DNA from: Flavobacteriales bacterium
GTDB lineage: Bacteria; Bacteroidota; Bacteroidia; Flavobacteriales; Schleiferiaceae
Reading direction: 5' to 3'
NCBI GenBank assembly: GCA_017795025.1
Contig: CP051243.1
Location: 2,814,897 to 2,878,896 of the forward strand
DNA length: 64,000 nucleotides
The notes beneath the pieces are model-generated. The model was not told the origin of the DNA and ran no database searches. It saw only the letters and a list, made by a program, of their open reading frames with translations. Below, piece after piece: positions 38,827-61,796 of the stretch. The position numbers were made by a program, and so were the translations under genes. Each line of letters opens with the position of its first letter. The first letter of the stretch is position 1.

Positions 38827-38951
38827 ACTTTTGGTAAAAATGACATTAAGTATAGGTAAAAACTTTTCTAGGTGCTGAAAATGAGCACCTATCCTAAAAT
38901 GTGAATCTCACACTTTTGGTAGGTTTTACTAAATGAAAATTTGTACTTTTG
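38827..38951. promoter_or_regulatory. Divergent regulatory region with ACTTTTGG half-sites and a palindrome
   Basis: ACTTTTGGTA lies at 38827-38836 and again at 38912-38921, and a third ACTTTTGG at 38945-38952 forms part of a TACTTTTG (-7-like) box at 38944-38951. Between them is a perfect palindrome with 8-base arms (38869-38876 and 38884-38891) and a 7-base spacer. The SusC promoter carries CTTTTGGT in an inverted repeat of the same 8-7-8 shape. These are candidate binding sites for the NUDIX-type regulator. Confidence 0.55.
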
Positions 38952-38972: not shown

Positions 38973-39728
38973 ATGGCTGAAAAGACTATTGACCGACCCT
39001 TAACTGAAGTGAAATCGCAGTTTGCGGTACCTTATTATGAAATATCCTACGACAAGTTTTTTCAGTTTGGCGTATCGGTAGACTGTGTCGTTTTTGGATA
39101 CCACGAGAATCGCCTAAAGATACTATTAATTAAGCGAGGGGCCGAACCTTATAAAGGAATGTGGGCTCTTCCGGGTGATTTAGTGTATCCCAATGAAAAT
39201 ATTGAGGTTGCGGCCCAGCGAATCCTGCGCGACCTTACCGGCATCGAAGACCTTTACATGGAGCAAACCAAAGTATATGGTAAGGTCGATCGTCACCCCG
39301 CCGGGCGCGTTATTACCACCGCCTATTACTCCTTAATTGATATTGCTAAACATGATCCCCATGCTTCGGCTTGGGCCGAAGGTGTTTATTGGCTCGACTT
39401 AGCCGAAATGCCTAAACTCGCTTTTGATCACAGCGAAATATTAAAAGACGCCTTAGTTGTTTTACAACAGAGGGTGCGGCATCAACCCGTAGGATTCGAG
39501 CTGCTTCCCGAAAAATTTGCTTTAGCCGATTTACAAGCCCTTTACGAAGCCTTGCTAAATGAAACTTACGATAAGGCCAACTTCCGAAAGCGCATTTTAA
39601 GCATGAATCTTTTAATCTCTTTAAAAGAGAATCAAAAGGATGTGCCGCACCGACCGGCCCGTTTGTATAAGTTCGATAAGCAACGTTATGATGAGCTCAT
39701 TTCTAAGGGTTTCTCCTTTGAGCTCTAG
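38973..39728 (+). CDS. NUDIX-domain transcriptional regulator (NrtR/AraR-like)
   Basis: The 251-residue protein has an N-terminal NUDIX domain (about 25-155) in which the catalytic box is degenerate (R-I-L-R-D-L-T-G-I-E-D-L in place of R-E-x-x-E-E-x-G), so it is likely a sensor, not a hydrolase. A C-terminal winged-helix domain follows (about 170-245). This is the layout of NrtR-family regulators, which in Bacteroidota control sugar-use genes. It lies at the head of the laminarin locus, 31 bases before the MFS gene, and between likely target promoters; it is the only regulator in the locus. Confidence 0.83.
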   Translation: MAEKTIDRPLTEVKSQFAVPYYEISYDKFFQFGVSVDCVVFGYHENRLKILLIKRGAEPYKGMWALPGDLVYPNENIEVAAQRILRDLTGIEDLYMEQTKVYGKVDRHPAGRVITTAYYSLIDIAKHDPHASAWAEGVYWLDLAEMPKLAFDHSEILKDALVVLQQRVRHQPVGFELLPEKFALADLQALYEALLNETYDKANFRKRILSMNLLISLKENQKDVPHRPARLYKFDKQRYDELISKGFSFEL

Positions 39729-39759
39729 TTCCCCCACATCAACCAAATAAGTACGCTGT

Positions 39760-41313
39760 ATGAACCAATCGTATTCGAGAATTATTTTCATAATTGCCTT
39801 GATTGTAGCCCTGGGTGGCTTATTAATGGGGTTCGATGCCTCCGTAATTTCTGGGGTGGTTAAATTTATTGAAGCGGAGTTTGAACTCACTAAACTGCAA
39901 TTAGGTTGGTCTGTGGCCTCCTTAACGCTAACCTCCACCGCGGCGATGATGATTGCCGGTCCTTTAAGTGATCGCTTTGGCCGTCGTTCGGTGTTACGCG
40001 TAGCCGCCATACTATATGCTATATCCGCAATAGCCTCGGCCTTGGCGCCAAGTTTTATCGCCCTAGTGATTGCGCGAATGATTGGCGGGTTTGGCGTTGG
40101 GGCATCCCTTATTCTTGCTCCCATGTATATCGCCGAAATTTCACCCAAGGAACTTCGCGGTCGACTGGTATCCTTTAATCAGCTCAACATCGTAATTGGT
40201 ATTTCATTAGCCTTTTTTAGTAACTATTGGATCCTACAATTGGGGAAAAGCAGTGCCGATTGGGTGGCTAGCTTAGGCATTGCAGAGCATAATTGGCGCT
40301 GGATGCTGGGCTTAGAAACCATTCCAGCCGTGCTTTATTTCTTTGGTTTGTTCTTTGTTCCGCGCAGTCCGCGTTGGTTAATGATGCATGGTCAGCCCCA
40401 AGAAGCGAAGAAAGTGATGATTCGCATTACGGGAGAAGAACGCGCTGAAAGCGAGCTCAACCGGATTCAAGAAAACATTGAGCAAGACAAGGACCGCGAT
40501 AGTGGTAGTATAGCGGAGCTTTTTAAACCGGCCATGAAGCTGGTAATTAGCATTGGAATTGTGGTTGCCGTTTTGCAGCAGATTACCGGAATCAATTCGG
40601 TTTTCTTTTATGCCCCCATGATTTTTGAGCAGAGTGGACTGGGTACCGATGCTTCCTTTATGCAAGCTATTTTGGTGGGCCTCGTTAATTTGGTCTTTAC
40701 CATTTTAGCCATACTCTTTATCGATCGACTCGGTCGAAAACCCCTGCTTACCTTTGGGGTCGCGGGGATTGTGATTTCCATGTCGGTACTGGCCTATGGC
40801 TTTAATGCGGCGACCTACGAAATAAAGCAAGATGATATCGAAGCCCTTAAACTAGAGTCGGATATCAGCGCTATGCTGGGCACGAACTATGCTAAATCGG
40901 CCGATTTTGAAACCGCACTTTTAGAGTATGTGCAGGCCGAAGAATGGGAGAATAAGCGTCAGGATATTCTCAATGCCAGTATTGAGCTTAATACCATATT
41001 AATTTTAGGGGCCATCCTGGCCTTCGTTGCTTCTTTCGCAATTTCTATCGGACCAGTGATGTGGGTGCTCTTTTCGGAGTTGTTCCCCAACCGAATTAGA
41101 GGAATTGCCATATCCTTCGTGGGTTTAATTAATTCGGCGGTAAGCTTCATTGTGCAGTGGGTCTTCCCTTGGGAATTAGAAGTCCTCGGCAGTTCTACCA
41201 CCTTCCTTATTTACGGATTGTTTGCCCTGGCGGGACTCATCTTTATCATTCGCGTAGTGCCCGAAACAAAGGGTAAGTCGCTTGAAGAGCTCGAAAGAAC
41301 CCTAGTAAAATAA
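39760..41313 (+). CDS. Sugar porter family MFS transporter
   Basis: The 517-residue protein has twelve membrane helices and sugar-porter motifs: D-R-F-G-R-R between helices 2 and 3, P-R-S-P-R-W-L at the centre, D-R-L-G-R-K and P-E-T-K-G-K-S-L-E-E-L-E at the C-terminus. A charged insertion (about residues 355-405) between late helices is longer than usual. It probably carries glucose or small beta-glucan oligosaccharides across the inner membrane with H+. It follows the regulator and precedes the lyase-free hydrolase series, so it belongs to the laminarin operon. Confidence 0.9.
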   Translation: MNQSYSRIIFIIALIVALGGLLMGFDASVISGVVKFIEAEFELTKLQLGWSVASLTLTSTAAMMIAGPLSDRFGRRSVLRVAAILYAISAIASALAPSFIALVIARMIGGFGVGASLILAPMYIAEISPKELRGRLVSFNQLNIVIGISLAFFSNYWILQLGKSSADWVASLGIAEHNWRWMLGLETIPAVLYFFGLFFVPRSPRWLMMHGQPQEAKKVMIRITGEERAESELNRIQENIEQDKDRDSGSIAELFKPAMKLVISIGIVVAVLQQITGINSVFFYAPMIFEQSGLGTDASFMQAILVGLVNLVFTILAILFIDRLGRKPLLTFGVAGIVISMSVLAYGFNAATYEIKQDDIEALKLESDISAMLGTNYAKSADFETALLEYVQAEEWENKRQDILNASIELNTILILGAILAFVASFAISIGPVMWVLFSELFPNRIRGIAISFVGLINSAVSFIVQWVFPWELEVLGSSTTFLIYGLFALAGLIFIIRVVPETKGKSLEELERTLVK

Positions 41314-41319
41314 GACCTT

Positions 41320-42546
41320 ATGAAACGTATCTGGATAGCTAGCCTCCTGCTAGCCACTTGGGCCTGTAATTCCAATCAAGAAGCGGAAGTGCTCGAGGTA
41401 GAAAAAGACCCCCTACATTTTTTAGCCTCGGATTTAAGTGATGCAGGCGATAGCCTTTTAACCTTTAGTGCTGGAGATGAGTTTGAGTTCCAGGTGCCCA
41501 TCACGGAAACGGGTCGGTACCGCGTAAGTGTAGAAATGCAAAGTGCCGATTCGGCCTTGGTTTGGTTAGAAGACTACATTCTGAATACCGACGACCGAAG
41601 CTATAATATTACCGGCGACCTTTTAGCAAAACCCGAAATGAGCGTGGTGCATATCGACGGGAGTCCACTCGACACCGGCAGCCATCCCATTAGCCTTCAC
41701 GTAAAGCAAGGCAGTGTAGCGATTAAGTCCATTCAGTTTAAGCTTCTACGCAAGTGGAAGGAGACTCCCCATTTTCACAAACAAGAAACAGAAGGGGATA
41801 GCTGGGAATTGGTATGGAGCGATGAGTTTAATGGTGAAGGCTTACCCGACACCAGTAAATGGTCGTACAACCTCGGTAATTGGGGTTGGGGGAATAACGA
41901 ACCGCAGTACTATACCGAAGGACGCCTAGAAAACGCCAGACAAGAGAACGGTACCCTAATTATTGAGGCCCGTAAAAATGATATGGGGCAGGATTGGACC
42001 TCGGCCCGATTAAGTACCCAAGGCAAACATGCTTTTACCTACGGAAGGGTAGAGTTTAGAGCCAAAGTGCCTGTAGGCAGAGGAACTTGGGCTGCAGGTT
42101 GGTTGTTAGGCGATGCTTATCGCGATGAAATTTCCTGGCCTTATTGCGGTGAAATCGACGTCCTCGAATGTGTGGGATACGAAATAAACGATACTACCGG
42201 AAAGGGTTTAAATCACGCCACTTGTCATACCCGCGCCTATTATTTTAAACAAGGGAATCAAATTGGCTCCGAAATCGAAGTGGATAGCATGAACTCCGTT
42301 TTCCATACCTATGCCATTGAGTGGTACCCCGATCGAATTGAGGCCTATTTGGATGAAGAGCATTACTTCACCTACGATAAGAATGCAAATGAATTGGAAT
42401 GGCCTTTCCATAACCCTCAGAATATCATCTTAAATCTTGCTGTTGGCGGAGGTTGGGGGGGTGCAAAAGGTATCGACCCCAATTGGGATAAGCATCAGTA
42501 TATTTTGGATTATGTCCGCGTGTACCAACGAAAAGCAGCGGAATAA
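41320..42546 (+). CDS. GH16 family endo-beta-1,3-glucanase lipoprotein
   Basis: The 408-residue protein has a lipoprotein signal (Cys at 16), an N-terminal beta-sandwich of about 110 residues resembling a CBM6-like module, and a GH16 catalytic domain from about 162. The active-site motif is E278-I-D-V-L-E283 (nucleophile and acid/base). It is probably a surface laminarinase cutting beta-1,3-glucan. It overlaps the GH30 gene by one base (TAATG). Confidence 0.9.
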   Translation: MKRIWIASLLLATWACNSNQEAEVLEVEKDPLHFLASDLSDAGDSLLTFSAGDEFEFQVPITETGRYRVSVEMQSADSALVWLEDYILNTDDRSYNITGDLLAKPEMSVVHIDGSPLDTGSHPISLHVKQGSVAIKSIQFKLLRKWKETPHFHKQETEGDSWELVWSDEFNGEGLPDTSKWSYNLGNWGWGNNEPQYYTEGRLENARQENGTLIIEARKNDMGQDWTSARLSTQGKHAFTYGRVEFRAKVPVGRGTWAAGWLLGDAYRDEISWPYCGEIDVLECVGYEINDTTGKGLNHATCHTRAYYFKQGNQIGSEIEVDSMNSVFHTYAIEWYPDRIEAYLDEEHYFTYDKNANELEWPFHNPQNIILNLAVGGGWGGAKGIDPNWDKHQYILDYVRVYQRKAAE

Positions 42547-44039
42547 TGCGGAAGCTGAGTCTGGTTTTAATCTCCCTAGCGCTAATGGCTTGCAATAAGG
42601 AAAAGCCCGCGGCTGATATCGAAGTTTGGCAAAGCACTGCCCAAGGGGATAGATTGCTTAAACTCGAGCCCCAACAGGCTCCTGAAACCAGATTGGCCAT
42701 CAACCTGAAGCCCGAAACGCGATTTCAGGAAATCGATGGTTTTGGTGGAGCCCTTACCGAATCCAGCTCGCATTTACTGCAACAGCTTCCGGCCGAGCAA
42801 AGAGCCGAGGTGCTAAAGGCCTACTTTGATCCTAATGAAGGCGCTTATACCATTGCGCGCTTACATATTAATTCCTGCGACTTTTCCCTTAATTCCTACG
42901 ATTATATCGAAGAAGGGGATACCAGTTTAAGCACCTTCGACCTTGCGCCAGATCGAGAAGATATTATTCCCATTGCCCGGCAGGCTCTGGAAGCGGCTCA
43001 GGGTAATTTGCGCTTTTTTGCTTCTCCCTGGACCGCCTCTCCCTGGATGAAGGATAATAATGCTTGGTTTGGCGGTAAGCTCCTACCCGAGTACTACGAC
43101 CTCTGGGCGCGCTACTTTGTGCGCTACGCTCAGGAGTATCAAAAAGAAGGTATTCCCATTTGGGGCTTTACCGTAGAGAATGAACCTTTGGGCAATGATG
43201 CCAACTGGGAAAGCATGCATTTTAGTCCGGAAGAAATGGCCCACTTCGTGAAGCATTTCTTAGCTCCGCGACTGCAAGAAGCCGGCTTAGATGCCGAGAT
43301 TATGGTATACGATCAAAACCGCGGTGAGGAATTGGTGGAATGGGCCGAAGTGCTGCTTCAGGATGAAGAATTAAAGCCCTTGATTTTTGGCACCGCCGTA
43401 CATTGGTATACTAGTACTTTTAAATGGTTCCCCGAATCGCTTCAAGCCACGCATAAGCTGGCTCCGGAGAAGAAGATTTGGAATACCGAGGCTTGTGTAG
43501 ATGCCGAAGTACCCCATTGGCAAGATGATGCCTGGTATTGGAAAAAAGAAGCCACCGACTGGGGATATACCTGGGCGCCAGAGGAAGATAAAGCCGACCA
43601 CCCCAAGTACGTACCGGTTTATCGCTACGCTCGGGATATTATTGGCTGTTTAAATAATCGTGTATCCGCCTGGGTAGATTGGAACATCGTTTTAGATCGA
43701 GAGGGAGGACCTAATCATGCCTCCAATTGGTGTGTGGCCCCGGTAATTGCCGATACCACCGCGGGAGAGGTATACTTTACCCCCTTGTACGATGCCCTGC
43801 GTCATTTTAGTCATTTTATTAAACCGGGTGCCTATGCCATCGATTGGCGGGGAACTATTCCAGAGGGTCTTCACCTCTGCGCCGTTCAGAATCCGGATGG
43901 AAGCTTGATTATTCCTATCTTAAATACATCAAACCAAGATCTTTCATTTAGTTGGAAAATGGATTCCAAGTCCTTAGGCCAGAGTAGTATTCCTGCCGGT
44001 GCCTTACAAACACTTGTGATTCAGTTAAAGGAGCAATAG
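42546..44039 (+). CDS. GH30 family beta-glucanase lipoprotein (probable beta-1,6-glucanase)
   Basis: The 497-residue protein has a lipoprotein signal (Cys at 16) and a GH30 TIM barrel plus side beta-domain. The acid/base is E213 in T-V-E-N-E-P and the nucleophile E315 in W-N-T-E-A. Marine Bacteroidota use GH30 enzymes to remove beta-1,6-linked glucose branches from laminarin; that role is inferred from the locus. It lies between GH16 and the phosphorylase-like gene in one operon. Confidence 0.88.
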   Translation: MRKLSLVLISLALMACNKEKPAADIEVWQSTAQGDRLLKLEPQQAPETRLAINLKPETRFQEIDGFGGALTESSSHLLQQLPAEQRAEVLKAYFDPNEGAYTIARLHINSCDFSLNSYDYIEEGDTSLSTFDLAPDREDIIPIARQALEAAQGNLRFFASPWTASPWMKDNNAWFGGKLLPEYYDLWARYFVRYAQEYQKEGIPIWGFTVENEPLGNDANWESMHFSPEEMAHFVKHFLAPRLQEAGLDAEIMVYDQNRGEELVEWAEVLLQDEELKPLIFGTAVHWYTSTFKWFPESLQATHKLAPEKKIWNTEACVDAEVPHWQDDAWYWKKEATDWGYTWAPEEDKADHPKYVPVYRYARDIIGCLNNRVSAWVDWNIVLDREGGPNHASNWCVAPVIADTTAGEVYFTPLYDALRHFSHFIKPGAYAIDWRGTIPEGLHLCAVQNPDGSLIIPILNTSNQDLSFSWKMDSKSLGQSSIPAGALQTLVIQLKEQ

Positions 44040-44043
44040 TATT

Positions 44044-47000
44044 ATGATGCAGATTAAAATCGGCCAACAAAGCTTAAACGCCACCGAGGCTAATGTTGAA
44101 GGCGATTTCACAACTTTAAACGGTGTTGACTTTTACCGTATCAAGCGGGTAGATGAGATGCCTCCATTCTTTATGACTCTGGTGAGTCCCTTCGATCACT
44201 GGCTATTTATTGGTAGCAACGGGGGCCTATCAGCCGGAAGGCAAAACGCGGATAAAGCCTTATTCCCTTACTATACCGACGATAAGATTATTGACAATGC
44301 CGCTTTCACGGGTCCAAAAACGATTATTCGCTTACGCGATCCTCAAAATTCAGATTCGGCTTTCCTTTGGGAACCCTTTGATGATCGCGCCAAGGGAATG
44401 TACCGCATTGAGCGTAACCTCTACAAGAGTTTACGGGCCGAGCAATTGCATTTTGAAGAGATAAACCACGACCTCCAATTACGCTTTGCTTACCGCTGGT
44501 CTTTCTCTCAAAACTATGGCTTTGTGCGTCAGTGCTGGCTGGAGAACCTAGCCGATACCGAGCGGGATTTGGAATGCCTAGATGGCCTTGAAAATATTTT
44601 GCCTTTTGGGGTAGATGGCCTGATGCAAGATAGCCGCAGTAACCTGGTAGATGCTTACAAGAAGAACGAATTAGACCCCGAGAGTGGTCTCGCCATTTTT
44701 AGCCTAAGCTCCAATATTGTAGATAAGGCCGAGCCGAGCGAAGCCCTTCGCGCCAATGTAGTTTGGTCTACGGGTGCTAAGGAAGAACAATTGTTAAGTA
44801 GCCGTCAGGTAGAAAACTTCCGCATGGGAGGGGGCCTGGAAATGGAAACCTTTACCAAGGCTTCAAAAGCGGCTTACTTTGGCTTGCGCCGGATGCAACT
44901 TAAAGCCCAGGCCGGAAATAGCTGGTACGTAGTGGCCGATGTGGGTCTCTCTAGTGCAAAGGTGATTGATTTGCGCCACAAAATTATGGCCGAGGACCTC
45001 AGCGATGTTTTGGATGCGGAGATTAGAAATAGTCAGAACGAATTGGAAACCTTAGTGGCTAAGGCCGATGGTTTGCAATGTAGTGCCGATCGCTTGGTGC
45101 AAACACGTCACTATGGTAATGTGCTTTACAACATCATGCGTGGGGGAATTTTTGAAGAAACCTATCAACTGGATCGCAGCGACTTTAAAGATTACCTTAA
45201 AAAGAGCAATAAAGAATTATACGAGGGGCTAAGCGCCGAGCTCGAAGGCTTACCCGAGCAGTTTGATTACAACTGGTTACAGAATTGGTTGGTGGAAAAG
45301 GGCAATGCCGACTTACGCCGCTTAGGGGTTGAGTATTTACCCCTCAGTTTTAGCCGCCGTCACGGCGATCCTTCCCGACCTTGGAATCGCTTTAATATTC
45401 AGCGCTACAACCCCCGAGGCGAGCGTATCTTAAACTACGAAGGAAACTGGCGCGATATCTTCCAAAACTGGGAGGCCTTGGCGTATTCCTACCCTCGCTT
45501 TATAGAGGGCATGATTTTCAAGTTTTTAAACGCCTCCACCATTGATGGTTACAATCCTTATCGTATCGAAAAGAACGGTATCGACTGGGAGGTTATTGAA
45601 CCACATGACCCTTGGTCGTTTATCGGCTACTGGGGCGACCATCAGCTTATTTATTTACTGCGCTTACTGGAGCACTGCGAGGCCCATTATCCTGGGATGT
45701 TAAAAGCCATGACCAAGGAGTTTAGCTTTGTTTATGCCGATGTTCCTTATCGCATTAAGCCTTACACGGAGATTTTAAAGGACCCGCAGGATACCATCCT
45801 TTTTGATGAGGCCCAAAATCGAGCGGCTGATGCTCGCTACGCCAAAATAGGCACCGATGGAAAGCTAATATGGACCGAGGAGGGCAGTCCTCTGAGGGCG
45901 AACCTGGCGGAGAAGATTTTACTTACGGTCTTAACCAAGATGTCCAATTTAGTTCCGGGAGGTGGCGTGTGGATGAACACCCAACGTCCGGAATGGAACG
46001 ATGCCAATAATGCCCTCGTTGGAAACGGGCTTAGTATGGTAACCCTTTATTACCTGCGCCGTTTCATGCGCTTTATGGAAGGATGGTTAGCGGATCAAGA
46101 AGAAGATCTATACGTTAATGGGGCCCTTATGAATATGTTCCTTTCCGTTTCTGAAGTGGTAGAGGACTACTTCCAAAAGGAGACCTACACTGAGAAAGAA
46201 CGCAAGGACTTTGTAGACCGAATGGGGCAGGCTGGCGAGCGTTATCGCGAAGCGGCCTATAGCATGGACTTAGGGGCTTCCCAATCCTTGGGTATAATCG
46301 AATCCCGCGAGTTCTGTGCCCGCACGATTCGCATGCTCGACCGCTGGATTGCCGAGAACGAAAAAGACAATGGACTGTACCATGCCTATAATTTGCTGAA
46401 GCAATCCGAAAAAGGCCTGGAGCTGGAATACCTCTACGAAATGCTGGAAGGCCAGGTAGGTGTATTAACCTCCCAATATTTAAGCCCTGAGAAGGCGGTG
46501 AGTGTTTTAGATGGTTTAAAGGCCTCGGCGATGTTCCGAGCCGATCAATACTCCTACATGCTTTACCCCAACCGGGATTTGGGAACCTTCCTCGATAAAA
46601 ACAAGATTAAGGCCGCCAGCGTAGCGGGGAAAAAATTAAGTCCCTACCTACTCGAAAAAGACAGCTTAGGCGATTATCATTTCCGAGGACATTTTAATAA
46701 TGCTAAGGATTTAAAACAGGACCTTGAGCAATTAGCAGCGTCCGGTTACCAAGCGGAAGTGGAGGCCGAAACGCAATTTTGGCTTGATTTATACGAAGAC
46801 AATTTTGTACACCGGGCTTTTACCGGACGCTCTGGTACTTTCTATGGTTTTGAGGGCTTAGGCAGTATTTACTGGCATATGGTTTCTAAACTCCTTTTAG
46901 CCGTACAGGAGAATCTACGCTATGCTAAGAAGGTAAAGGCTTCGCCCGAAACAATTGGTCGATTAACGGATCACTACTACGAAATTAGAGCGGGTATTGG

Positions 47001-47457
47001 TGCCAATAAACCACCACAACTTTACGGAGCCTTCCCATTCGATGCCTATTCGCACACGCCATCCACCGCAGGTGCTAAGCAACCGGGTATGACCGGGCAG
47101 GTGAAGGAAGATATTATCAGCCGTTGGGCCGAGCTCGGAATGGAAGTGCAAAATGGTCAAATACACATTGATCCCTTCTTCTTGTCGGAGGACGAATTTT
47201 TAAAGGAGGAGCGTCAATTCCGCTACCTCGATGCCGAGGGCGTTTGGCAAGAGATTAGTCTTTCTGCCGGAGAATTAGCTTTTACCTATTGTTGTGTTCC
47301 TATCGTGTTTAAGCGAGCAGAGAAGCCGCAGCTTAGTATTAGCCTGGCCAATGGGGAAAGTGTAAAATTAGATGTACTGAAAGTTCCCGCAGCCCAAAGT
47401 GCGGAGATCTTTAAACGCAATAACCAAGTACGATTGATACGGGCTATGCTAGCCTAG
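44044..47457 (+). CDS. Large glycoside phosphorylase-like protein (GH94/GH149/GH161-related), probable beta-1,3-glucan phosphorylase
   Basis: The 1137-residue protein has no signal peptide and so is cytoplasmic. Its N-terminal beta-sandwich (about 1-300) and central (alpha/alpha)6-like helical region match the overall layout of inverting cellobiose/beta-glucan phosphorylases. The segment P-E650-W-N-D653-A-N-N-A is where the D-W-N-D catalytic aspartate motif of GH94 is expected. Families GH94, GH149 and GH161 all include beta-1,3-glucan phosphorylases, and size favours GH149 or GH161, but I cannot decide without a search. In the locus it would cleave imported oligosaccharides with phosphate to give glucose-1-phosphate. 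There is no GH3 enzyme beside it. Confidence 0.68.
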   Translation: MMQIKIGQQSLNATEANVEGDFTTLNGVDFYRIKRVDEMPPFFMTLVSPFDHWLFIGSNGGLSAGRQNADKALFPYYTDDKIIDNAAFTGPKTIIRLRDPQNSDSAFLWEPFDDRAKGMYRIERNLYKSLRAEQLHFEEINHDLQLRFAYRWSFSQNYGFVRQCWLENLADTERDLECLDGLENILPFGVDGLMQDSRSNLVDAYKKNELDPESGLAIFSLSSNIVDKAEPSEALRANVVWSTGAKEEQLLSSRQVENFRMGGGLEMETFTKASKAAYFGLRRMQLKAQAGNSWYVVADVGLSSAKVIDLRHKIMAEDLSDVLDAEIRNSQNELETLVAKADGLQCSADRLVQTRHYGNVLYNIMRGGIFEETYQLDRSDFKDYLKKSNKELYEGLSAELEGLPEQFDYNWLQNWLVEKGNADLRRLGVEYLPLSFSRRHGDPSRPWNRFNIQRYNPRGERILNYEGNWRDIFQNWEALAYSYPRFIEGMIFKFLNASTIDGYNPYRIEKNGIDWEVIEPHDPWSFIGYWGDHQLIYLLRLLEHCEAHYPGMLKAMTKEFSFVYADVPYRIKPYTEILKDPQDTILFDEAQNRAADARYAKIGTDGKLIWTEEGSPLRANLAEKILLTVLTKMSNLVPGGGVWMNTQRPEWNDANNALVGNGLSMVTLYYLRRFMRFMEGWLADQEEDLYVNGALMNMFLSVSEVVEDYFQKETYTEKERKDFVDRMGQAGERYREAAYSMDLGASQSLGIIESREFCARTIRMLDRWIAENEKDNGLYHAYNLLKQSEKGLELEYLYEMLEGQVGVLTSQYLSPEKAVSVLDGLKASAMFRADQYSYMLYPNRDLGTFLDKNKIKAASVAGKKLSPYLLEKDSLGDYHFRGHFNNAKDLKQDLEQLAASGYQAEVEAETQFWLDLYEDNFVHRAFTGRSGTFYGFEGLGSIYWHMVSKLLLAVQENLRYAKKVKASPETIGRLTDHYYEIRAGIGANKPPQLYGAFPFDAYSHTPSTAGAKQPGMTGQVKEDIISRWAELGMEVQNGQIHIDPFFLSEDEFLKEERQFRYLDAEGVWQEISLSAGELAFTYCCVPIVFKRAEKPQLSISLANGESVKLDVLKVPAAQSAEIFKRNNQVRLIRAMLA

Positions 47458-47494
47458 ATGTACGCACCTTTAAAGGTGAACTAAAATTAAGATA

Positions 47495-50400
47495 ATGACT
47501 AAGACCTCTATCCTAAAAACATGGATGCTTAGCTGTTTGATGCTACTTGGAGGTCTGGTTCAGGCTCAGGTAGTTCAAACAGGCGCAGGCTCCTACACGA
47601 CCAATTTCCCAGGCACAGATGCGGCGGGACGAAACGGCTACCCTGGTGGTAATCCCTTTGTAACTGGAGTGGCAGCGAATAAACCCGTGCCCACCAATGA
47701 GTGGTGGTCGCATAAGGTGAAGAACGCGCATTCCTCCAATCTCTTTAATTATCCCTTTACCCTAAAAACGGTAAATCAAGGATTGGTAGCCACTTATATT
47801 CCTTGGGGCCCAATCGACAATATCGAACCTGTGGTAGTGGGGGTTTCGGGCTTAAATGCCTCGGCGGCAAATGTTGCCGACCACGACGATTGGATGATTC
47901 GTTTGGATTGGCAAAGTGGAAACCGCCATTTTCAAGCACGAACCGGCGTAGGCATGCCTTTTTTGTATTTTGACAAGGACAGCAATAGCACCGCTCAGGT
48001 AGTGATTAATCAAGGGGCAGTAACCGACTCGGGCTCCTTCCTCATTGTTAAGGGAGTACGCAACGGAGCCGATTTTGTGATTTACGGCCCCTCAGGCAGT
48101 ACCTGGCAGAAAAGCGGAAACACCTATACCTCTAGTCTAAATGGCAAAAATTATTGGTCCTTACTTTTCCTGCCACCGGGAGGAAATGTCGATCAAAAGG
48201 CTTCCAATATGCGGAAGTATGCTTTTGTTTTTCCTACGCAATGTATTGCAGATTGGAACTATAATGAGCAAACCTCGGTTGTGCATACGGATTTTATCAT
48301 CCAAACCGAGGTAAAGGAAGGAACCGATACTTTATTCCTACAAGGTTTATTACCCCATCATTGGGATAATCTAGCCGCCGGAAGTATAGTAAATACCAAC
48401 CATGTATTCAGCACCGTACGGGGCGATTTAAAGTTAAGGGAAGGAAACGCCTTTGCGGTAGAAAACACCTTTCATGGCATCTTACCAACCTTACCCAATG
48501 TAAATTGCCGCAGTGCCAGTTTCGATCCTTCGGCACTACAAGAAAAAATTGACCTTCTAAAAAATGAAGGTTTAGCCACTTGGACCGACTCTTACAACGA
48601 GGGGCAGGCGATGAATCGCTTAATTCAGACGGCACGTATAGCCGAGCAAATTGGCGACACCTCTGCCTTAAACAGTATTTTACAAACCATTCAAAGCCGT
48701 TTAGAAGATTGGTTATCCTACCAATCTGGGGAGGTGGCCTTCCTGTTTTATTACAATCAAACTTGGGATGCGCTAATTGGTTATCCAGCCGGGCACGGGC
48801 AGGACGTTAATATTAATGATCACCATTTTCACTGGGGGTACTTTATTCATGCGGCCTCCTTTTTGGAGCAGTATAATCCGGGCTGGGCTTCTAATTGGGG
48901 ACCGATGATTCGGATATTGATTCGCGATGCAGCCAGCGCCGACCGTAGTGATAACCTTTTCCCCTACCTACGCAACTTTAGCCCCTATGCCGGGCATTGC
49001 TGGGCCAATGGCTTTGCGAGCTTCCCGCAGGGAAATGACCAGGAGTCAACCTCGGAGAGCATGCAGTTTAACTCCTCGCTTATTCACTGGGGAGCGGTAA
49101 CCGGTAACGATTCTATTCGCGATTTAGGAATTTACCTGTATACCACCGAGCAATCGGCGGTAGAGGAGTATTGGTTCGATATGCATCAGCGTAATTTTGG
49201 TGCCAATCAGCAATACGGTTTAGTCTCCCGCGTATGGGGGAATAGCTATGACAATGGCACCTTTTGGACCGCCGATATTGCCGCCTCCTATGGCATTGAG
49301 CTTTATCCTATTCACGGAGGCTCTTTGTATTTGGGTCATAACCCAACCTATGCCGCTTCCATTTGGTCGGAAATTGAACAGCATACCGGTATTTTAAGCA
49401 ATGCTCCCAATGTTAACCTTTGGCATGATATCATGTATCAGTATTTGGCCTTCACCGATCCGGATAAGGCCCTAAACCTTTACGATAATTACCCCAATCG
49501 CTCTTTAAAGTTTGGGGTTTCTGACGCCCAAACGTATTACTGGCTACATAGCATGAAAGTGCTTGGCACTCCAGATGCCGCGGTTACCGCCGACCATCCT
49601 TTGGCCGCCGCATTTATGGGCGATGGTAACCGGGTATACGTGGCTCAAAATTATGGTAGTAGTCCCCTAACCGTTAATTTTTCGGATGGACAGCAGCTTA
49701 CCGTTGCTCCCGGTAAATTGGGAACTTCTCTTGATGCCAATTTGGAAGGGGAACTCTCGGTTTTATTCGACCGGGCCTACACTTGGGGGAATGCCCAGCT
49801 AACTTTTAACCTGCAACAAGGCAGTCCCGACTATATGGTGCTTTATCAAAACGGCGACAGTATTGCCACCTTGCAACAAGCGCCTTATCAGTATACGGTA
49901 GACAGTCTGCCTGCCGGGGTGCATGGCTTTTATGTGCAGATGTATCAAGGTGCAAATTGTGCGGTATCTAACCTCGTGCATGTAACCGTAGGGGAACAAG
50001 TGCCTTACCATGGAACGCCAGCCTTGATTCCTGGGAGCATTTTTGCTGGGGAATACGATCTTTTCGAAGGAGGTTTTGCCAATGGAATTAGCTATCAAGA
50101 CCTAAGTCCGGGTAATAACGGGGACTTCCGCCTAAGCGAATGGGCAGATGCCTCTAACCATAATGCCGAAGGCGCGGTAGTAGGCTGGATAAACGCGGGT
50201 GAGTGGTTGGAGTTCACGGTGGATGTGCAGCAAGCAGGCAACTATGATGTAGATATTCGCTTTGCGAGTGGCAACAATGCCGGTGGTGGGCCTATGCGCA
50301 TCGAGTCGGATGGTCAGATCGTAAAATCCGGGATTAGCTTTAATTATACTTCCGACTGGAATACCTGGAATACCAAAACAGTTACTAATGTCCCGCTCAA

Positions 50401-51607
50401 GTCGGGGGAGCAAATTCTTCGCCTGTATTTCGAGTCGGGAGAATTTAATCTTGGAGAGCTCGACTTTAAACTCAGTAGCCCTTTAAATTACAATCAGCCT
50501 ATTGCCGATGCCGGACCTAATCAGGTGATTGTATTACCCACTAACCAAGCTAGTCTTGATGCAACAGCCAGTACGAACCCTGGCGGGGGATCTTTGAGCT
50601 ATTCCTGGACCCAAGTATATGGTCCTAGCGCCGCCGCTCCGGCAAGTCCTAATGCCGCCTTAAGTAGCCTTAGCAATTTGCAAAGAGGAGTGTATAAATA
50701 CCGTTTGCAAGTGGATAATGGTAGCTATCAGGATCAGGATGAGCTTTTCATTATTGTAGGTGATAATGCGAATGTTCCACCTACCGCTAGCTTTTTGGCA
50801 CCTGCGCAGGGAAGCCGCTTTTTTGAAGGGGAGCAAATGGATATTTTAGGCACGGCTAATGACCTAAACGATAGTGTTCAAAAGGTCGACTTTTACCTCA
50901 ATGGGCAGTTGGTGCAGTCGGTGGCCTCTCGGCCTTATAGTTTAAACTGGACGGCCGTTCTTGGGCCGGCCGAGTGGAAGTTATTGGCTTATGATTATCT
51001 GGGCGACTCCGCTTGGTCTGCACCCTTAAACTTGCAAATCGACACCGCACCATCCTGCGAAGGAAGCAGTCATAATGGGGATTTTAGTTGGAAGTTTTCG
51101 GCTGATGATAATAATCCGACCCTAACTTTTATTCCTTCTCAAACTGGTGTTGGCGTTCCCACCTGCATTTTATACTATGGCACCGACCCTAATGGCATGC
51201 CGGGCTATCCGGTAACGCCTAATGTGCCTTATCAAATCAACGCGTCCAAAGGAGATCACATCTATTTTTACTACACCTATTCCTTCCCTGGAGCAGGCGA
51301 ACGAAACAATGCGGCCCATAAAGACAGTTATGTGATTGGCACCTGTAGTGATATCGGTTTAGATCCCTATTGGGAACAAAAAGTTGAGGTTTATCCTAAT
51401 CCTACTCAAGGACAGATTAAGGTTGAGCTACCCTCGGCGGGAGCCCAATTAAGAATGTATGACGCTTGGGGAAGATTGGTATTGCAAAAGGACAATGCTG
51501 AATTACAGGAGCAGCTATCCTTCCCTTATCTAGGGGCCGGAATTTATTTCTTAAATGTTACTTATGAAGGCCATTCAGCGAATTACAAGATTATGCACCG
51601 GCCCTAA
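47495..51607 (+). CDS. Modular GH81 endo-beta-1,3-glucanase with CBM6, CBM56 and T9SS sorting domain
   Basis: The 1370-residue protein has a signal peptide (1-24) and a GH81 catalytic domain from about 25 to 720. The domain shows P-T-N-E-W-W-S near 66, D442-H-H-F-H-W-G-Y and N-D-Q-E517-S-T-S-E521, the family's acidic pair. After an Ig-like segment come a CBM6-like module (about 840-990), a PKD-like domain (about 1000-1090) and an Ig-like domain (about 1095-1185). A module of about 1190-1285 with N-G-D-F-S-W-K-F and Y-F-Y-Y-T-Y resembles CBM56, a beta-1,3-glucan binder. A T9SS sorting domain (Y-P-N-P) closes it. It is probably a secreted or cell-surface enzyme acting on insoluble laminarin. 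Confidence 0.87.
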   Translation: MTKTSILKTWMLSCLMLLGGLVQAQVVQTGAGSYTTNFPGTDAAGRNGYPGGNPFVTGVAANKPVPTNEWWSHKVKNAHSSNLFNYPFTLKTVNQGLVATYIPWGPIDNIEPVVVGVSGLNASAANVADHDDWMIRLDWQSGNRHFQARTGVGMPFLYFDKDSNSTAQVVINQGAVTDSGSFLIVKGVRNGADFVIYGPSGSTWQKSGNTYTSSLNGKNYWSLLFLPPGGNVDQKASNMRKYAFVFPTQCIADWNYNEQTSVVHTDFIIQTEVKEGTDTLFLQGLLPHHWDNLAAGSIVNTNHVFSTVRGDLKLREGNAFAVENTFHGILPTLPNVNCRSASFDPSALQEKIDLLKNEGLATWTDSYNEGQAMNRLIQTARIAEQIGDTSALNSILQTIQSRLEDWLSYQSGEVAFLFYYNQTWDALIGYPAGHGQDVNINDHHFHWGYFIHAASFLEQYNPGWASNWGPMIRILIRDAASADRSDNLFPYLRNFSPYAGHCWANGFASFPQGNDQESTSESMQFNSSLIHWGAVTGNDSIRDLGIYLYTTEQSAVEEYWFDMHQRNFGANQQYGLVSRVWGNSYDNGTFWTADIAASYGIELYPIHGGSLYLGHNPTYAASIWSEIEQHTGILSNAPNVNLWHDIMYQYLAFTDPDKALNLYDNYPNRSLKFGVSDAQTYYWLHSMKVLGTPDAAVTADHPLAAAFMGDGNRVYVAQNYGSSPLTVNFSDGQQLTVAPGKLGTSLDANLEGELSVLFDRAYTWGNAQLTFNLQQGSPDYMVLYQNGDSIATLQQAPYQYTVDSLPAGVHGFYVQMYQGANCAVSNLVHVTVGEQVPYHGTPALIPGSIFAGEYDLFEGGFANGISYQDLSPGNNGDFRLSEWADASNHNAEGAVVGWINAGEWLEFTVDVQQAGNYDVDIRFASGNNAGGGPMRIESDGQIVKSGISFNYTSDWNTWNTKTVTNVPLKSGEQILRLYFESGEFNLGELDFKLSSPLNYNQPIADAGPNQVIVLPTNQASLDATASTNPGGGSLSYSWTQVYGPSAAAPASPNAALSSLSNLQRGVYKYRLQVDNGSYQDQDELFIIVGDNANVPPTASFLAPAQGSRFFEGEQMDILGTANDLNDSVQKVDFYLNGQLVQSVASRPYSLNWTAVLGPAEWKLLAYDYLGDSAWSAPLNLQIDTAPSCEGSSHNGDFSWKFSADDNNPTLTFIPSQTGVGVPTCILYYGTDPNGMPGYPVTPNVPYQINASKGDHIYFYYTYSFPGAGERNNAAHKDSYVIGTCSDIGLDPYWEQKVEVYPNPTQGQIKVELPSAGAQLRMYDAWGRLVLQKDNAELQEQLSFPYLGAGIYFLNVTYEGHSANYKIMHRP

Positions 51608-53348
51608 AATTATTGGGCTTTCCTTAATTCTAATCCTAACGGCTTCTTGCATGCAACAGCCTAAAGCGAAAACTGCCCGTGAAATTTTGGGAAACCCTCA
51701 ATATCCCGCCATTGCTTTTGGTGGCTATCGCAATGCCGATCGGTCCGATGCACCAACGGTGGCGCAGTTAAAAGAAGATGTTAGCATCCTACACGCCATG
51801 GGGATTCGCATTCTTCGTACCTATCATGCCCGATTGTACGATCATGCCCCCAATCTCTTAAAGGCCATCGCCGAGATTAAAACGGAGGATCCCAATTTTG
51901 AGATGTATGTGATGCTTGGTGCCTGGATGCAATGCGAGGGAGCTTGGACCGATAGTCCCAATCACAACCAAGGAGACCAAGAGGAGAATAGTGCCGAAAT
52001 CGCTAAGGCGGTTGAACTGGCCCAAAAGTACCCGGATATCGTGAAGGTGATTGCGGTGGGTAACGAGTCTATGGTACATTGGGCGGCAAGCTATTATGTG
52101 CATCCTCGTATCATTTTAAAAGAGGTAGATTATTTACAGGCGCTCAAGGCAGATGGTAAATTGGATTCAAGCTTATGGATTACCTCTTCCGATAATTTTG
52201 CCTCCTGGGGAGGGGAAGGGCCGGAGTACCACTTGCCCGCTTTAGATTCCTTAATAGAGGCGGTAGATTATCTGTCGGTACACGTTTACCCTTTCCATGA
52301 TACGCATTACAATCCCGATTGGTGGTGGACACGACCTGAGGAAGAAGGCTTGGAGAAGGCCGCGAAAATTGATGCTTCGATGCAAAGGGGTTTAGCACGC
52401 GCCCAAAATCAGGTAGCCGCCGTAAAAGCCTACTTAAAAGATAAAGCCCTTGTTAAGCCCATTCATATTGGAGAAACCGGTTGGGCCAGTGCTGATAATC
52501 ACTTGTATGGCCAGGACGCCTCTGGAGCGGCAGATGAGTATAAGCAGGCTTGGTTTTACCATAAGATGCGGGCCTACTGCTCCGCAGAGCAAATGGCCTG
52601 TTTCTATTTTGAAGCCTTTGATGAGCCCTGGAAAGATGGCGATAACCCCGGAGGTTCGGAGAATCATTTTGGACTTTTTACGGTAGACGGTGTGGCTAAA
52701 ATGCCCATTTGGTCTTTAGTAGATCAAGGAATATTTGAAGGATTAAGTCGCGGTGCTAAGCCCATTCGCAAAAGCTTAGATGGCGATAGTGCCAAGGCCT
52801 TAATGCTCGCTGGAATTCCTACCAAACAATCCGATCAAGCGGCATTACGCATTTCCGATTCGAGCGCAGAGGCCTTGGTAATTGGCCCTAAAGATCTTCA
52901 TTCGGATTTTAAGATTGAGCAGCTTATTACCCTAAACCCTTGGGAGGGAAGCTGTGCGGCTCGCCTTGCAGACGATGGAAGCTTAATTATCCAAACCGGA
53001 ACGGGTGATTGGTGGGGTGCCTCTCTCGACCTGAAAGAGCCCTGGGATATGCGCGCTTGGGAAGATGGAGAGTTGATTCTGGAGATATCCGGAGATAGTG
53101 ATTGCCGCTTTCAAATGGGCTTTCAAAGCGGCTTGTTTGCCGATGGCAGTCAAAAGGCAGCTATTCTTAATCTCGGGCCAGGCACCAAGTTTAAGATAGA
53201 TGAGGAGCCCAGGCGCATTAGAATACCCTTAAGAATGATAAAAGCGGAGGCAAACCTAGATGATGTTCGCGCTCCGCTTTATATAAAAGGTATTTACGGT
53301 TTTGATGGCAAAGAAATTCGGATTCACCGCTTTGCCTATCGTTCCTAG
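51555..53348 (+). CDS. GH17 family beta-1,3-glucanase lipoprotein
   Basis: The 597-residue protein (an ATG nine bases further on is an equally possible start) has a lipoprotein signal ending L-T-A-S-C (Cys at 32). The GH17 TIM barrel has acid/base E171 in V-G-N-E-S and nucleophile E307 in H-I-G-E-T-G-W. A C-terminal galactose-binding-like domain of about 160 residues follows (about 440-597). The gene overlaps the GH81 gene by about 50 bases. Its stop is three bases from that of the convergent GH16 gene. It probably acts on laminarin chains at the cell surface or in the periplasm. Confidence 0.88.
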   Translation: MLLMKAIQRITRLCTGPKIIGLSLILILTASCMQQPKAKTAREILGNPQYPAIAFGGYRNADRSDAPTVAQLKEDVSILHAMGIRILRTYHARLYDHAPNLLKAIAEIKTEDPNFEMYVMLGAWMQCEGAWTDSPNHNQGDQEENSAEIAKAVELAQKYPDIVKVIAVGNESMVHWAASYYVHPRIILKEVDYLQALKADGKLDSSLWITSSDNFASWGGEGPEYHLPALDSLIEAVDYLSVHVYPFHDTHYNPDWWWTRPEEEGLEKAAKIDASMQRGLARAQNQVAAVKAYLKDKALVKPIHIGETGWASADNHLYGQDASGAADEYKQAWFYHKMRAYCSAEQMACFYFEAFDEPWKDGDNPGGSENHFGLFTVDGVAKMPIWSLVDQGIFEGLSRGAKPIRKSLDGDSAKALMLAGIPTKQSDQAALRISDSSAEALVIGPKDLHSDFKIEQLITLNPWEGSCAARLADDGSLIIQTGTGDWWGASLDLKEPWDMRAWEDGELILEISGDSDCRFQMGFQSGLFADGSQKAAILNLGPGTKFKIDEEPRRIRIPLRMIKAEANLDDVRAPLYIKGIYGFDGKEIRIHRFAYRS

Positions 53349-53351
53349 TGT

Positions 53352-54473
53352 TTATTGAAATACCCGCACATAGTCTACTGTCATTTGCTGTGGGAATACG
53401 GTACTCGCATCCGGACTACCGGGCCAAATACCACCCACGGCAACATTAAAGATAAAGAAGAAGTTTTCTTTAAACTCATCTAATGCCGCTGGAGTAATAT
53501 CGATTTGGTGGTACTGTACATCATCAAAATACCAAGTAATAGCATTTTGATCCCAAATAATCGTGTACACGTGGAATTCTTCGGATAACTTCCCATCTGT
53601 AGATCGAATAGATCCTCCAAAGTCGGCCTTGGTGCCATTATTATCCCAGTGCGCGGTACCAAAACAATATTCATCGCCACGATTTGGACCAGGACCTCCC
53701 ACCATTTCCATGATGTCGATTTCCCCACATTGAGGCCAGCCAATGGTATTAAAGCTATCCCCTAACATCCACAAGGCAGGCCATAAGCCTTGACCTTCCG
53801 GCATGGCCGCACGAATGTCGATTCGACCGTATTTAAAGCTTTGTTGTCCGGCGCTAATAATTCGAGAGGAAGTGTAATTACGACCGCCAAAAGCCTCGTC
53901 GGTGGCTTTAATGATGAGGTAGCCATCGCGTACCTCGGTGTTCTCGGGGCGGTAATATTGTAATTCTTGGTTTCCCCAACCATTCTGACCCGTACCCACC
54001 TCATGGGTCCAGTCACTAGAGAGGGAATTGCCATCAAATTCATCGTTCCACACTAAGGTATAGCCCGGATAAGACATGGGGGTAGAATAACCTGAAGTTG
54101 GGATGCCGCCAGGACTTCCCTGACTTACCTCAACGGTTACGGAGTCGATTTGCTCGATATAGTATTCAAAGCTAGCATAAGCACGACTACGAATAGCGTA
54201 AGTGCCACTTTCGGAGAAGTTATAGCTTATTTTACCATCCTTTGCTTCGATGGTTACCTCTTCGTCCACGTCAAAAAAGGTTGCGCGGTAGAAATTGGCA
54301 AAATTGGCGCTTAATTCAACATCCACTCTTCCTTCAATGGTAGTGGAATTTTGGATATCGACCTGCAGGTTTGTAGGACGAATAATTTGGACCGTGCTGG
54401 AATCTTCCTCCCCGCAAGAAGCCAATATTAGCCCGAGGGCAAGAAATTTAAAATAGCGTAGGTAGTAGTTCAT
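53352..54473 (-). CDS. GH16 family laminarinase lipoprotein (second)
   Basis: The 373-residue protein has a lipoprotein signal (Cys at 20), an N-terminal Ig/PKD-like domain (about 30-117), and a GH16 catalytic domain with E251-I-D-I-M-E256. It is the last gene of the SusC-SusD arm and differs from the GH16 at 41320 in its N-terminal module, so the two may act at different places or on different chain lengths. A terminator-like hairpin lies between it and the preceding gene. Confidence 0.9.
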   Translation of the reverse strand: MNYYLRYFKFLALGLILASCGEEDSSTVQIIRPTNLQVDIQNSTTIEGRVDVELSANFANFYRATFFDVDEEVTIEAKDGKISYNFSESGTYAIRSRAYASFEYYIEQIDSVTVEVSQGSPGGIPTSGYSTPMSYPGYTLVWNDEFDGNSLSSDWTHEVGTGQNGWGNQELQYYRPENTEVRDGYLIIKATDEAFGGRNYTSSRIISAGQQSFKYGRIDIRAAMPEGQGLWPALWMLGDSFNTIGWPQCGEIDIMEMVGGPGPNRGDEYCFGTAHWDNNGTKADFGGSIRSTDGKLSEEFHVYTIIWDQNAITWYFDDVQYHQIDITPAALDEFKENFFFIFNVAVGGIWPGSPDASTVFPQQMTVDYVRVFQ

Positions 54474-54531: not shown

Positions 54532-55887
54532 TTATTCCTGTTTAATATCATCAACATAGAAGATGTCTGGCGTAGTAATACCCCATCCTGGGAAAATTAC
54601 CAAGCGGTCAAAATCAGCTGGTGAACCGCTGAAATCGAAAGTAAGCTCTTGCCAAGTATTAGTTTGGGTAATAGAAGCGTCTACCTCAACAAAGTTGTTA
54701 GAGTTAGCTTGCTCCTCTAATTTCATGCGGAAAGTACCGGTATCAGAAGCCCAAACTTTTAACTTAATCATGGTTTGGCTGCTGAAGTCTAATTTGTCTT
54801 TCAAGTTCACAAACTGACCGGCCCAAGTTTCGTTACCATGCGTAACTTCCATAACGTTGCCACTAGTGTTAATACCACTGGCATCGGGGTTAGCGATGTA
54901 CTGGTAACCACCATTACCGAAGGTAGTCCAAGAAGGAGTTACACTTTCGAAATCTAATGGAAGGTTAGGATCTTCGGCAGGATTAGGGTTACTGTTGTAA
55001 CCTTCGGGTACAAAGCGTACGTACCAAGTAAGTCCTGGGTTAGCAGCTTTAGTATCTACAAAGCTCAACCAAAGCTCGTTCTCTTTCAAGCTTACGATTT
55101 TATAGGTACGGGTACCAGCCCAGTAGCCCATCATCGCATCACCACTAATGGTAAGAGTAGTATCTGCACCACTGTCGTCTAAGGTCCAAGTTTCACCCAT
55201 TTGATCGGGGAAAGCTGCGATAAAGTCGGCAACCGGAGAAGCAGTAGTATCGTCGAATGGGGGAATACCAGCATGTTCAGCGTTTACGTAAACACCTCCA
55301 CCTGTTACTTGGTCAAAACCAAAACCGTTTAAGTGGAAAGTATAACGGTCGTTATACATATCGGCACCAGCCTTTTCATTGGCATTGGCCGCATACCACT
55401 CAGGATAGTTACCTGCCGCACCAATTGGATCGGGACCTACACCAAAGTGGGCATCCGCGGCGGAGTCAACCGCCCAAGTCTTACTGGATCCACCAGTTAA
55501 TAGGGTGAATAATGGATTGTTTACCAAGTTAGGATCATCCTGAGCGATGGTAATGGTTTGCGTGCTAGAAGCGCTACCACCAGAGTTTTGCACAGTAAGG
55601 GTAACATCATAGTCACCGGCAAAAGGGTAGGTGGCACTTACATTGGTACCGGTTCCGGTAGAGCCGTTACCGAAGTCCCAGCTTGCAGCGAGACTACCAT
55701 TACTGGCGGTAAACTCAATTACATTGTCGCTGTTTGCAGATGCAGCATAGGTAAAGGCAGCATCAGCCGAGGTAGGAGGTTGTCCTAGGGTCGGGTTGTC
55801 GTCATCTTCTTTACAGGAAGTGGCGAATGCAATCAAGCCAATACCCATCCAAAGGCTCGATTTTCTGAAGAATGAATTAATGTTCAT
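54532..55887 (-). CDS. PKD-domain lipoprotein with C-terminal glucan-binding-like domain (SusE/F position)
   Basis: The 451-residue protein has a lipoprotein signal ending F-A-T-S-C (Cys at 25), a PKD domain (about 35-115, ending T-L-T-V), a middle domain of about 180 residues not otherwise recognised, and a C-terminal domain (about 305-451). The C-terminal domain shares the L-P-L-D-F opening, the W-x-x-x-F-V-x-L segment and the closing Y-V-D-D-I with the triple-repeat T9SS protein at 36584. Its place after SusC and SusD suggests a surface glycan-binding protein for laminarin. Confidence 0.83.
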   Translation of the reverse strand: MNINSFFRKSSLWMGIGLIAFATSCKEDDDNPTLGQPPTSADAAFTYAASANSDNVIEFTASNGSLAASWDFGNGSTGTGTNVSATYPFAGDYDVTLTVQNSGGSASSTQTITIAQDDPNLVNNPLFTLLTGGSSKTWAVDSAADAHFGVGPDPIGAAGNYPEWYAANANEKAGADMYNDRYTFHLNGFGFDQVTGGGVYVNAEHAGIPPFDDTTASPVADFIAAFPDQMGETWTLDDSGADTTLTISGDAMMGYWAGTRTYKIVSLKENELWLSFVDTKAANPGLTWYVRFVPEGYNSNPNPAEDPNLPLDFESVTPSWTTFGNGGYQYIANPDASGINTSGNVMEVTHGNETWAGQFVNLKDKLDFSSQTMIKLKVWASDTGTFRMKLEEQANSNNFVEVDASITQTNTWQELTFDFSGSPADFDRLVIFPGWGITTPDIFYVDDIKQE

Positions 55888-60618: not shown

Positions 60619-60652
60619 CAAATGTAGTTCTTTTGGTTAAATGTACCAAAAG
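60619..60652 (-). promoter_or_regulatory. SusC promoter with overlapping palindromic operator
   Basis: On the minus strand TACATTTG (plus 60619-60626) fits the TAnnTTTG -7 box. A TTTG -33 box lies 20 bases upstream (plus CAAA 60647-60650). A perfect palindrome (60630-60637 and 60645-60652, 7-base spacer) overlaps the -33 box, so a bound protein would block polymerase. The leader to the ATG is roughly 75 bases. Confidence 0.7.
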
Positions 60653-60832
60653 CATATTTTGAAAAAAGTGCATTATGTCTTGCAAATAAGCATGGTGGCC
60701 TGTATAATCTTCCACTAATGGTTTGTTGAACTATTAGTAAGCCGAGCTTAGGGTCTCCTTCTAAGGAGAGCACCTTTCAAAAGGGAAAACCGAGGCTTTA
60801 GGGCAACAATTCCAAAAAGTAGAAATTAATAA
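60653..60832. other. Intergenic stretch between the susC promoter and the tRNA promoter
   Basis: About 180 bases containing no gene and no clear hairpin. Confidence 0.5.
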
Positions 60833-61738: not shown

Positions 61739-61796
61739 AGATTATCAAAGTAAAACCGATATTTATAGAAGCAACAGCTATATGTTGCTAATGCTT

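Follow-up and report, generated by a model that had tools for sequence, protein, structure and literature searches.

We analyzed a 64,000-nucleotide stretch of contig CP051243.1 (GCA_017795025.1, Schleiferiaceae), hereafter the window, which carries a two-armed laminarin locus with a gene for a putative GH149 beta-1,3-glucan phosphorylase inside one of its arms. The source genome is a single contig of 3.44 Mb, 99.97% complete, and gene families were assigned by Pfam, NCBIfam and PDB-chain matches. The plus-strand arm (38973-53348) runs in the order Nudix regulator, MFS, GH16, GH30, GH149, GH81 and GH17. It is headed by a Nudix-type transcriptional regulator of the NrtR/AraR family (38973..39728, +), followed by an MFS sugar porter of the SP family, XylE/GlcP-like (39760..41313, +; TIGR00879 358.7 bits; 278.1 bits to XylE, 4gby), a GH16 protein that is likely a beta-1,3-glucanase (41320..42546, +; PF00722 74.9 bits) and a GH30 protein that is likely a laminarin-debranching beta-1,6-glucosidase or glucanase (42546..44039, +; PF02055 220.6 bits), the last two appearing by eye to be lipoproteins (the GH16 with a lipobox-like N-terminus). 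This GH30, the only one found in a search of the genome, scored 228.8 bits on the endo-1,6-beta-glucanase model NF053856, under its cut-off of 700. After the GH149 gene (44044..47457, +) come a GH81 protein with a CBM6 and a C-terminal sorting domain of the type IX secretion system (T9SS) type (47495..51607, +; PF17652 159.5, PF03422 57.3 and PF18962 43.1 bits) and an endolaminarinase-like GH17 protein with a C-terminal extension (51555..53348, +), judged a lipoprotein by eye from its N-terminus. The GH17 open reading frame starts at 51555 or 51564 and overlaps the end of the GH81 gene; its Pfam score (27.4 bits) is slightly short of the cut-off of 28.2, and a fragment covering window positions 51639-53345 matched the solved GH17 6fcg, presumably Formosa FbGH17A, with 505.7 bits. 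The gaps between successive genes from the Nudix gene through GH81 are 31, 6, -1, 4 and 37 bases.

The minus-strand arm faces this run and extends from 60536 down to 53352, with SusC, a TonB-dependent transporter (57414..60536, -; PF13715, PF07715 and PF00593), SusD (55932..57401, -; PF07980 123.6 bits), a PKD/CBM4_9 protein (54532..55887, -; PF18911 and PF02018) and a second GH16, also a lipoprotein by eye (53352..54473, -; PF00722 80.1 bits). The first-pass annotation of the window, made from its letters, had listed GH16 twice, GH30, GH81, GH17, SusCD and an MFS porter, with the gene of a leaderless phosphorylase-like protein of 1137 residues between GH30 and GH81; the reading frames and families agree with that list, and the gene at 44044-47457 is indeed flanked by GH30 and GH81.

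The 1137-residue protein had no Pfam match. On the GH149 equivalog NF058639 it scored 1545.6 bits (cut-off 1150), aligning through residues 15-1134 with positions 2-1131 of the 1134 in the model. Its sole strong solved relative was Pro_7066 (PDB 6hq6, 1163.5 bits), and the matches to a GH161 structure (9qqk, 52.1 bits) and to 9h8v ('cellobiose phosphorylase', 53 bits) were much lower, so the protein is not closer to GH161 or GH94 than to GH149. The active-site residues given for Pro_7066 are W651, N652 and D653, R470 and D471, E951 and H959 (PMC6771811). Reading the residue register against 6hq6 by hand off pairwise alignments, we found W651, N652 and D653 (the WND motif with the catalytic Asp) and R470 and D471 (the RD sugar-phosphate motif) kept in the window protein, and its E937 and H945 aligned with E951 and H959. 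The N-terminus (MMQIKIGQQSLNATEANVEG...) has no hydrophobic leader by eye, no leader program having been run. The resemblance to a phosphorylase family on which the first-pass proposal depended is thus present, both by equivalog model and by solved relative. We take the protein, from its sequence, to be a cytoplasmic beta-1,3-glucan phosphorylase that would share the phosphorolysis activity demonstrated for Pro_7066 and EgP1. Characterized GH149 enzymes can take glucose as acceptor (PMC6484121), so in the other direction they should get down to laminaribiose, unlike GH161.

To look for hydrolytic alternatives, we searched the whole genome for GH3 (PF00933) and GH1 proteins. Two GH3 proteins were found, both outside the window, in keeping with the earlier statement that the window holds none, and GH1 gave 0 matches. 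The first GH3 protein (976 residues) is beta-lactamase-like in its second half; in the scoring against NCBIfam, which used 853 and 373 residues of the two proteins, its best model was the beta-N-acetylhexosaminidase NF003740 (166.5 bits, cut-off 207), and it reached 115 bits on the exo-beta-1,3/1,6-glucosidase model (cut-off 1330). The second (385 residues) scored 156.8 and 59.6 bits on the same two models. A GH3_C domain (PF01915) was seen in the longer protein at 29.8 bits, under the cut-off of 31, and was unreported for the shorter one. Both proteins contain KHFPGH...DSH stretches, which we take to be NagZ-like, and both look like NagZ-type hexosaminidases. The first-pass annotation had left the rest of the genome to be checked for GH3 and had proposed cytoplasmic phosphorolysis in place of a GH3 beta-glucosidase. 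That proposal gains support here because the GH3 proteins, which score best on a hexosaminidase model and far under the glucosidase cut-off, look NagZ-type and GH1 was not found; activity of the window protein on beta-1,3-oligosaccharides is predicted from its sequence.

To assess how common such loci are, we used a draw of 296 genomes from the order and a draw of 395 from the phylum. GH149 was present in 38/296 and 70/395 genomes respectively, and the locus-type GH17, counted at E-values up to 1e-40, in 31/296 and 35/395, together 60 distinct genomes. All 60 of these were also GH149-positive and none had the GH17 without GH149; the genomes are related, and Fisher values for this co-occurrence overstate their independence. 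The two genes lay at most 300 bases apart in 42/60 genomes, at most 6000 bases apart in 13/60, and on separate contigs in 5/60. The reverse does not hold, GH149 occurring without the locus-type GH17 in 7/38 genomes of the order draw and 35/70 of the phylum draw. A GH3 gene was found in 7 of 34 GH149 loci of relatives (up to 20 kb each, from 33 of 37 GH149-positive relatives, several loci ending at contig ends) and in 22 of 80 titled-record loci, the best 80 of 570. Among the 50 of these 80 that were at least 21.4 kb long, GH3 was nearby in 16 and not nearby in 34, one of the 16 matches being weak and lying in a 1006-residue frame of NagZ-like size. GH3 is an optional part of GH149 loci. The implication of the first-pass annotation that a laminarin locus free of GH3 is odd does not stand, since GH149 loci without a nearby GH3 made up the larger part of our samples and are also in print (PMC10108472, PMC13188888). 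A short GH3-like frame, roughly 580-620 residues long, lies directly 3' of GH149 in a number of other loci, among them L080, L087, L088, L120 and L128.

Laminarin makes up a large share of marine carbon stocks, and the choice between hydrolysis and phosphorolysis puts about one ATP per bond at stake. We consider it highly probable that the window holds a phosphorolytic laminarin utilization locus, with GH149 splitting beta-1,3-oligosaccharides in the cytoplasm as the probable main last step, because neither a GH3 nor a GH1 beta-glucosidase was found in the genome. Judging by families and N-termini, laminarin would be cut and debranched outside the cell or at its surface by GH81, which is secreted, and by the GH16, GH17 and GH30 lipoproteins; SusC and SusD would import the pieces, and the MFS porter would move short laminari-oligosaccharides, or glucose, over the inner membrane. 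In the cytoplasm, GH149 would then use phosphate to release glucose-1-phosphate from the beta-1,3-oligosaccharides, shortening the chain step by step until glucose remains. The Nudix-type protein, as a repressor, would govern the two arms via palindromes that they have in common. The source genome, near-complete and with no GH3 or GH1 glucosidase found beside GH149, may have no route other than phosphorolysis and offers a clean test case of the extent to which this pathway by itself can sustain growth on laminarin.

Several observations weigh against this phosphorolytic reading. The hexosaminidase scores of both GH3 proteins fall under that model's own cut-off, and the negative result for glucosidases covers GH3 and GH1; other families with the potential to hydrolyze laminaribiose (GH2, GH5, GH116 and a second GH17 of the FbGH17B type) were not searched for. 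At the surface oligosaccharide site, Y993 and E994 of Pro_7066 are kept as Y979 and E980 but E990 is replaced by D976, at a site described as not strictly conserved in GH149 (PMC6771811). The porter, moreover, resembles the monosaccharide symporters XylE and GlcP, so that its role in oligosaccharide import is presumed, and this match gives substance to an alternative in which the periplasmic lipoprotein hydrolases make glucose, the porter imports glucose only and GH149 deals with a small remainder of oligosaccharides. The lipobox-like N-termini seen by eye on the GH16, GH30 and GH17 of the run also fit such a scheme. We nevertheless regard it as unlikely: GH149 lies within the tight run and accompanies the locus-type GH17 in every drawn genome that has the latter, the genome search turned up neither a GH3 nor a GH1 glucosidase, and some porters of the MFS superfamily carry oligosaccharides. 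Far less probable still, and in our view close to negligible, is that the cell uses GH149 in the opposite direction, to make beta-1,3-glucan out of glucose-1-phosphate. The phosphorylase reaction is freely reversible in vitro (PMC5827456), but the locus around the gene, with its SusCD and hydrolases of four families, is catabolic. Phosphate levels in cells also usually favor breakdown.

The absence of a GH3 glucosidase could also be a trait of the lineage and no substitution by GH149, a possibility that we rate as somewhat doubtful, though above the two alternatives just described, and that is compatible with GH149 acting as the main last step. A strong GH3_C match was absent from 11 of 13 GH149-negative genomes of the family (a subset of 20 listed; G082 and G183 have one), and the absence of GH3 therefore need not result from GH149. 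Against a mere lineage trait, the 38 GH149-positive genomes of the order draw comprised 15 with a strong GH3_C match, 2 with a medium one, 3 that were ambiguous and 18, from several families, with none beyond the long NagZ/beta-lactamase type; the classes were sorted by hand on score and frame length, as PF01915 also matches long NagZ-plus-beta-lactamase proteins, and another cut would shift a few genomes. GH149-negative relatives may, in addition, not use laminarin at all, as suggested by the locus-type GH17 occurring in 0 of 258 GH149-negative genomes of the order draw.

The idea of a phosphorolytic laminarin locus is already known, and the system is not new: reports of GH149 from laminarin loci of Bacteroidota go back to 2018. 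According to the founding paper of the family (PMC5827456), GH149 genes of Bacteroidetes share their loci with GH3 and/or GH30_1 as well as GH17 and/or GH16, and later work recorded GH149 either as part of laminarin loci or as increasing during blooms (PMC6246565, PMC10811738, PMC11573768), one of these reports terming phosphorylases in Bacteroidota unexpected (PMC11573768). The window protein is like Pro_7066 (6hq6; PMC5827456, PMC6771811) in its full length, its catalytic residues, the lack of a leader and its setting in a Bacteroidota polysaccharide utilization locus (PUL), and differs from it in the aspartate at the surface site and in that its activity is predicted. With SusCD, GH16, GH30, GH17, GH149 and an MFS porter, the locus has the composition of the variant 1 laminarin PUL of Formosa sp. 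Hel1_33_131 and Cd. Prosiliicoccus (PMC6246565, PMC10108472). One variant 1 locus is listed as GH149-GH0-GH30_1-GH17 in a metagenome-assembled genome that has a separate GH16_3-GH3 locus (PMC10108472). The window differs from variant 1 by its additional GH81, by its SP-family porter, which is free and not part of an MFS-GH17 fusion as in the majority of variant 1 loci, and by the Nudix regulator at the head of the run, PMC10108472 describing the bacteroidetal loci as without flanking regulators, unlike those of SAR92. In some Muricauda clusters (PMC13188888, 2026) GH3 stands in place of GH149 with two GH17 genes retained, which argues, at least per cluster, against a strict rule that GH17 comes with GH149. 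The Muricauda report thus states the same exchange of GH149 and GH3, while the gene order there differs and the regulator named is of the LuxR type.

To follow the gene order among relatives, we searched the 34 loci for the Nudix-MFS-GH16-GH30-GH149 cassette and found it in 8, with GH81 next in 6 of these. Five cassette loci come from the same genus as the source genome, one from another genus of its family and two from family f14. In a tree of 30 GH149 sequences, that of the same-genus genome G033 grouped with those of family f14 (G014 and G026) with support of 100/100, and the cassette of G033 has the same gene order as the f14 loci (L064 versus L077-L078). This grouping suggests a transfer of the cassette. 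The nine cassette-type GH149 sequences as a whole grouped weakly (82/44).

The regulator at the head of the plus run contains both a Nudix-like domain (NUDIX, 45.4 bits) and an NrtR winged helix (PF21906 NrtR_WHD, 87.2 bits), together with PF19368 AraR_C (52 bits). Its closest PDB relative is BtAraR (5bs6, 186.6 bits), an NrtR-family sugar-sensing repressor that likewise combines a Nudix-like domain with a winged helix and that arabinose releases from DNA (PMC4666351); the regulator described here differs in sitting in a laminarin locus. Two candidate operators precede its gene, CTTTTGGT-N7-ACATTAAG (38828..38850, +) and, 85 bases from it, CTTTTGGT-N7-ACTAAATG (38913..38935, +). Before SusC lie a further candidate operator, CTTTTGGT-N7-ACCAAAAG (60630..60652, -), and, 85 bases further up, a second palindrome, CTAATAGT-N7-ACCATTAG (60715..60737, -). 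The arms of the SusC operator were invariant in seven of seven genomes (the source genome, G033, G059, G067, G160, G278 and G090, of which G059 and G160 are close kin), at 16/16 positions as against 2/7 in the spacer, 7/100 upstream and 17/93 downstream; the counts for the SusC promoter exclude family f14, whose fetched stretches were without SusC. A palindrome of the SusC type also precedes the Nudix gene in all nine cassette genomes, f14 included, with 1-4 mismatches in the best match, and none of 300 shuffles was as good in eight of the nine, G278 giving 4/300.

With a loosened site alphabet, defined after the sites had been seen, each of 16 stretches from the nine genomes contained at least one site, compared with one site in 81 and two sites in 1 of 3200 shuffles. 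Pairs at 85-87 bases, or about eight helical turns, were present in 11/16 stretches (5/9 before the Nudix gene and 6/7 before SusC), the two sites before the Nudix gene of G090 are 99 bases apart, and four stretches have a single site. Palindromes as such are not rare in the SusC promoters, whose seven 300-base upstream stretches contain another ten inverted repeats of the 8-7-8 form that have no more than one mismatch. A literature search on laminarin together with a Nudix or NrtR regulator found no paper on such control, the one text with both words being an unrelated plant paper. From these conserved repeats we propose that the Nudix-type repressor probably controls both arms by binding shared palindromes. 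We lean slightly towards a more specific version, in which it would bind paired CTTTTGGT-N7-ACCAAAAG-like palindromes before its own operon and SusC, perhaps via DNA looping, and would come off in response to a pathway sugar or sugar phosphate, for instance the glucose-1-phosphate that GH149 makes. If true, uptake and phosphorolysis would both answer to a single signal. The co-regulation that the first-pass annotation had thought likely is thus favored by gene spacing and by the shared candidate operators.

We also scanned the genome with a pattern drawn from the two window sites, whose 0 mismatches are by construction. At up to 3 mismatches the pattern matched 53 times and its reversed control 42 times, so a weak match carries no meaning by itself. 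PEPCK was considered as a member of the regulon and rejected, its 2-mismatch match (L110) falling inside the end of the neighboring DUF423 gene. In a survey of 26 genomes, 24 of them with PEPCK, a match to the full palindrome with up to 3 mismatches upstream of this gene recurred only in G059 and G160 among the 23 other genomes read; counting against the rejection, such matches arose in only 12 of 4800 shuffled upstream stretches. Two other 2-mismatch matches look fortuitous, one (L111) close to an IS1 transposase and one (L113) at a thiamine pyrophosphate (TPP) enzyme. A different palindrome, near AGTGTA-N5-TACACT, was seen by eye upstream of PEPCK in several relatives (L199, L197, L204, L209 and L214).

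The gene divergent from the Nudix gene (window positions 36584-38797) encodes a CBM48 protein that has a secretion sorting domain at its C-terminus, and a CBM48 gene stands beside the Nudix gene in 8/8 cassette loci of relatives. Another 2-mismatch operator-like match (L112) is upstream of a different CBM48 protein elsewhere in the genome. At the other end, a C-5 cytosine DNA methylase (window positions 61782-62969) adjoins the SusC side of the locus.

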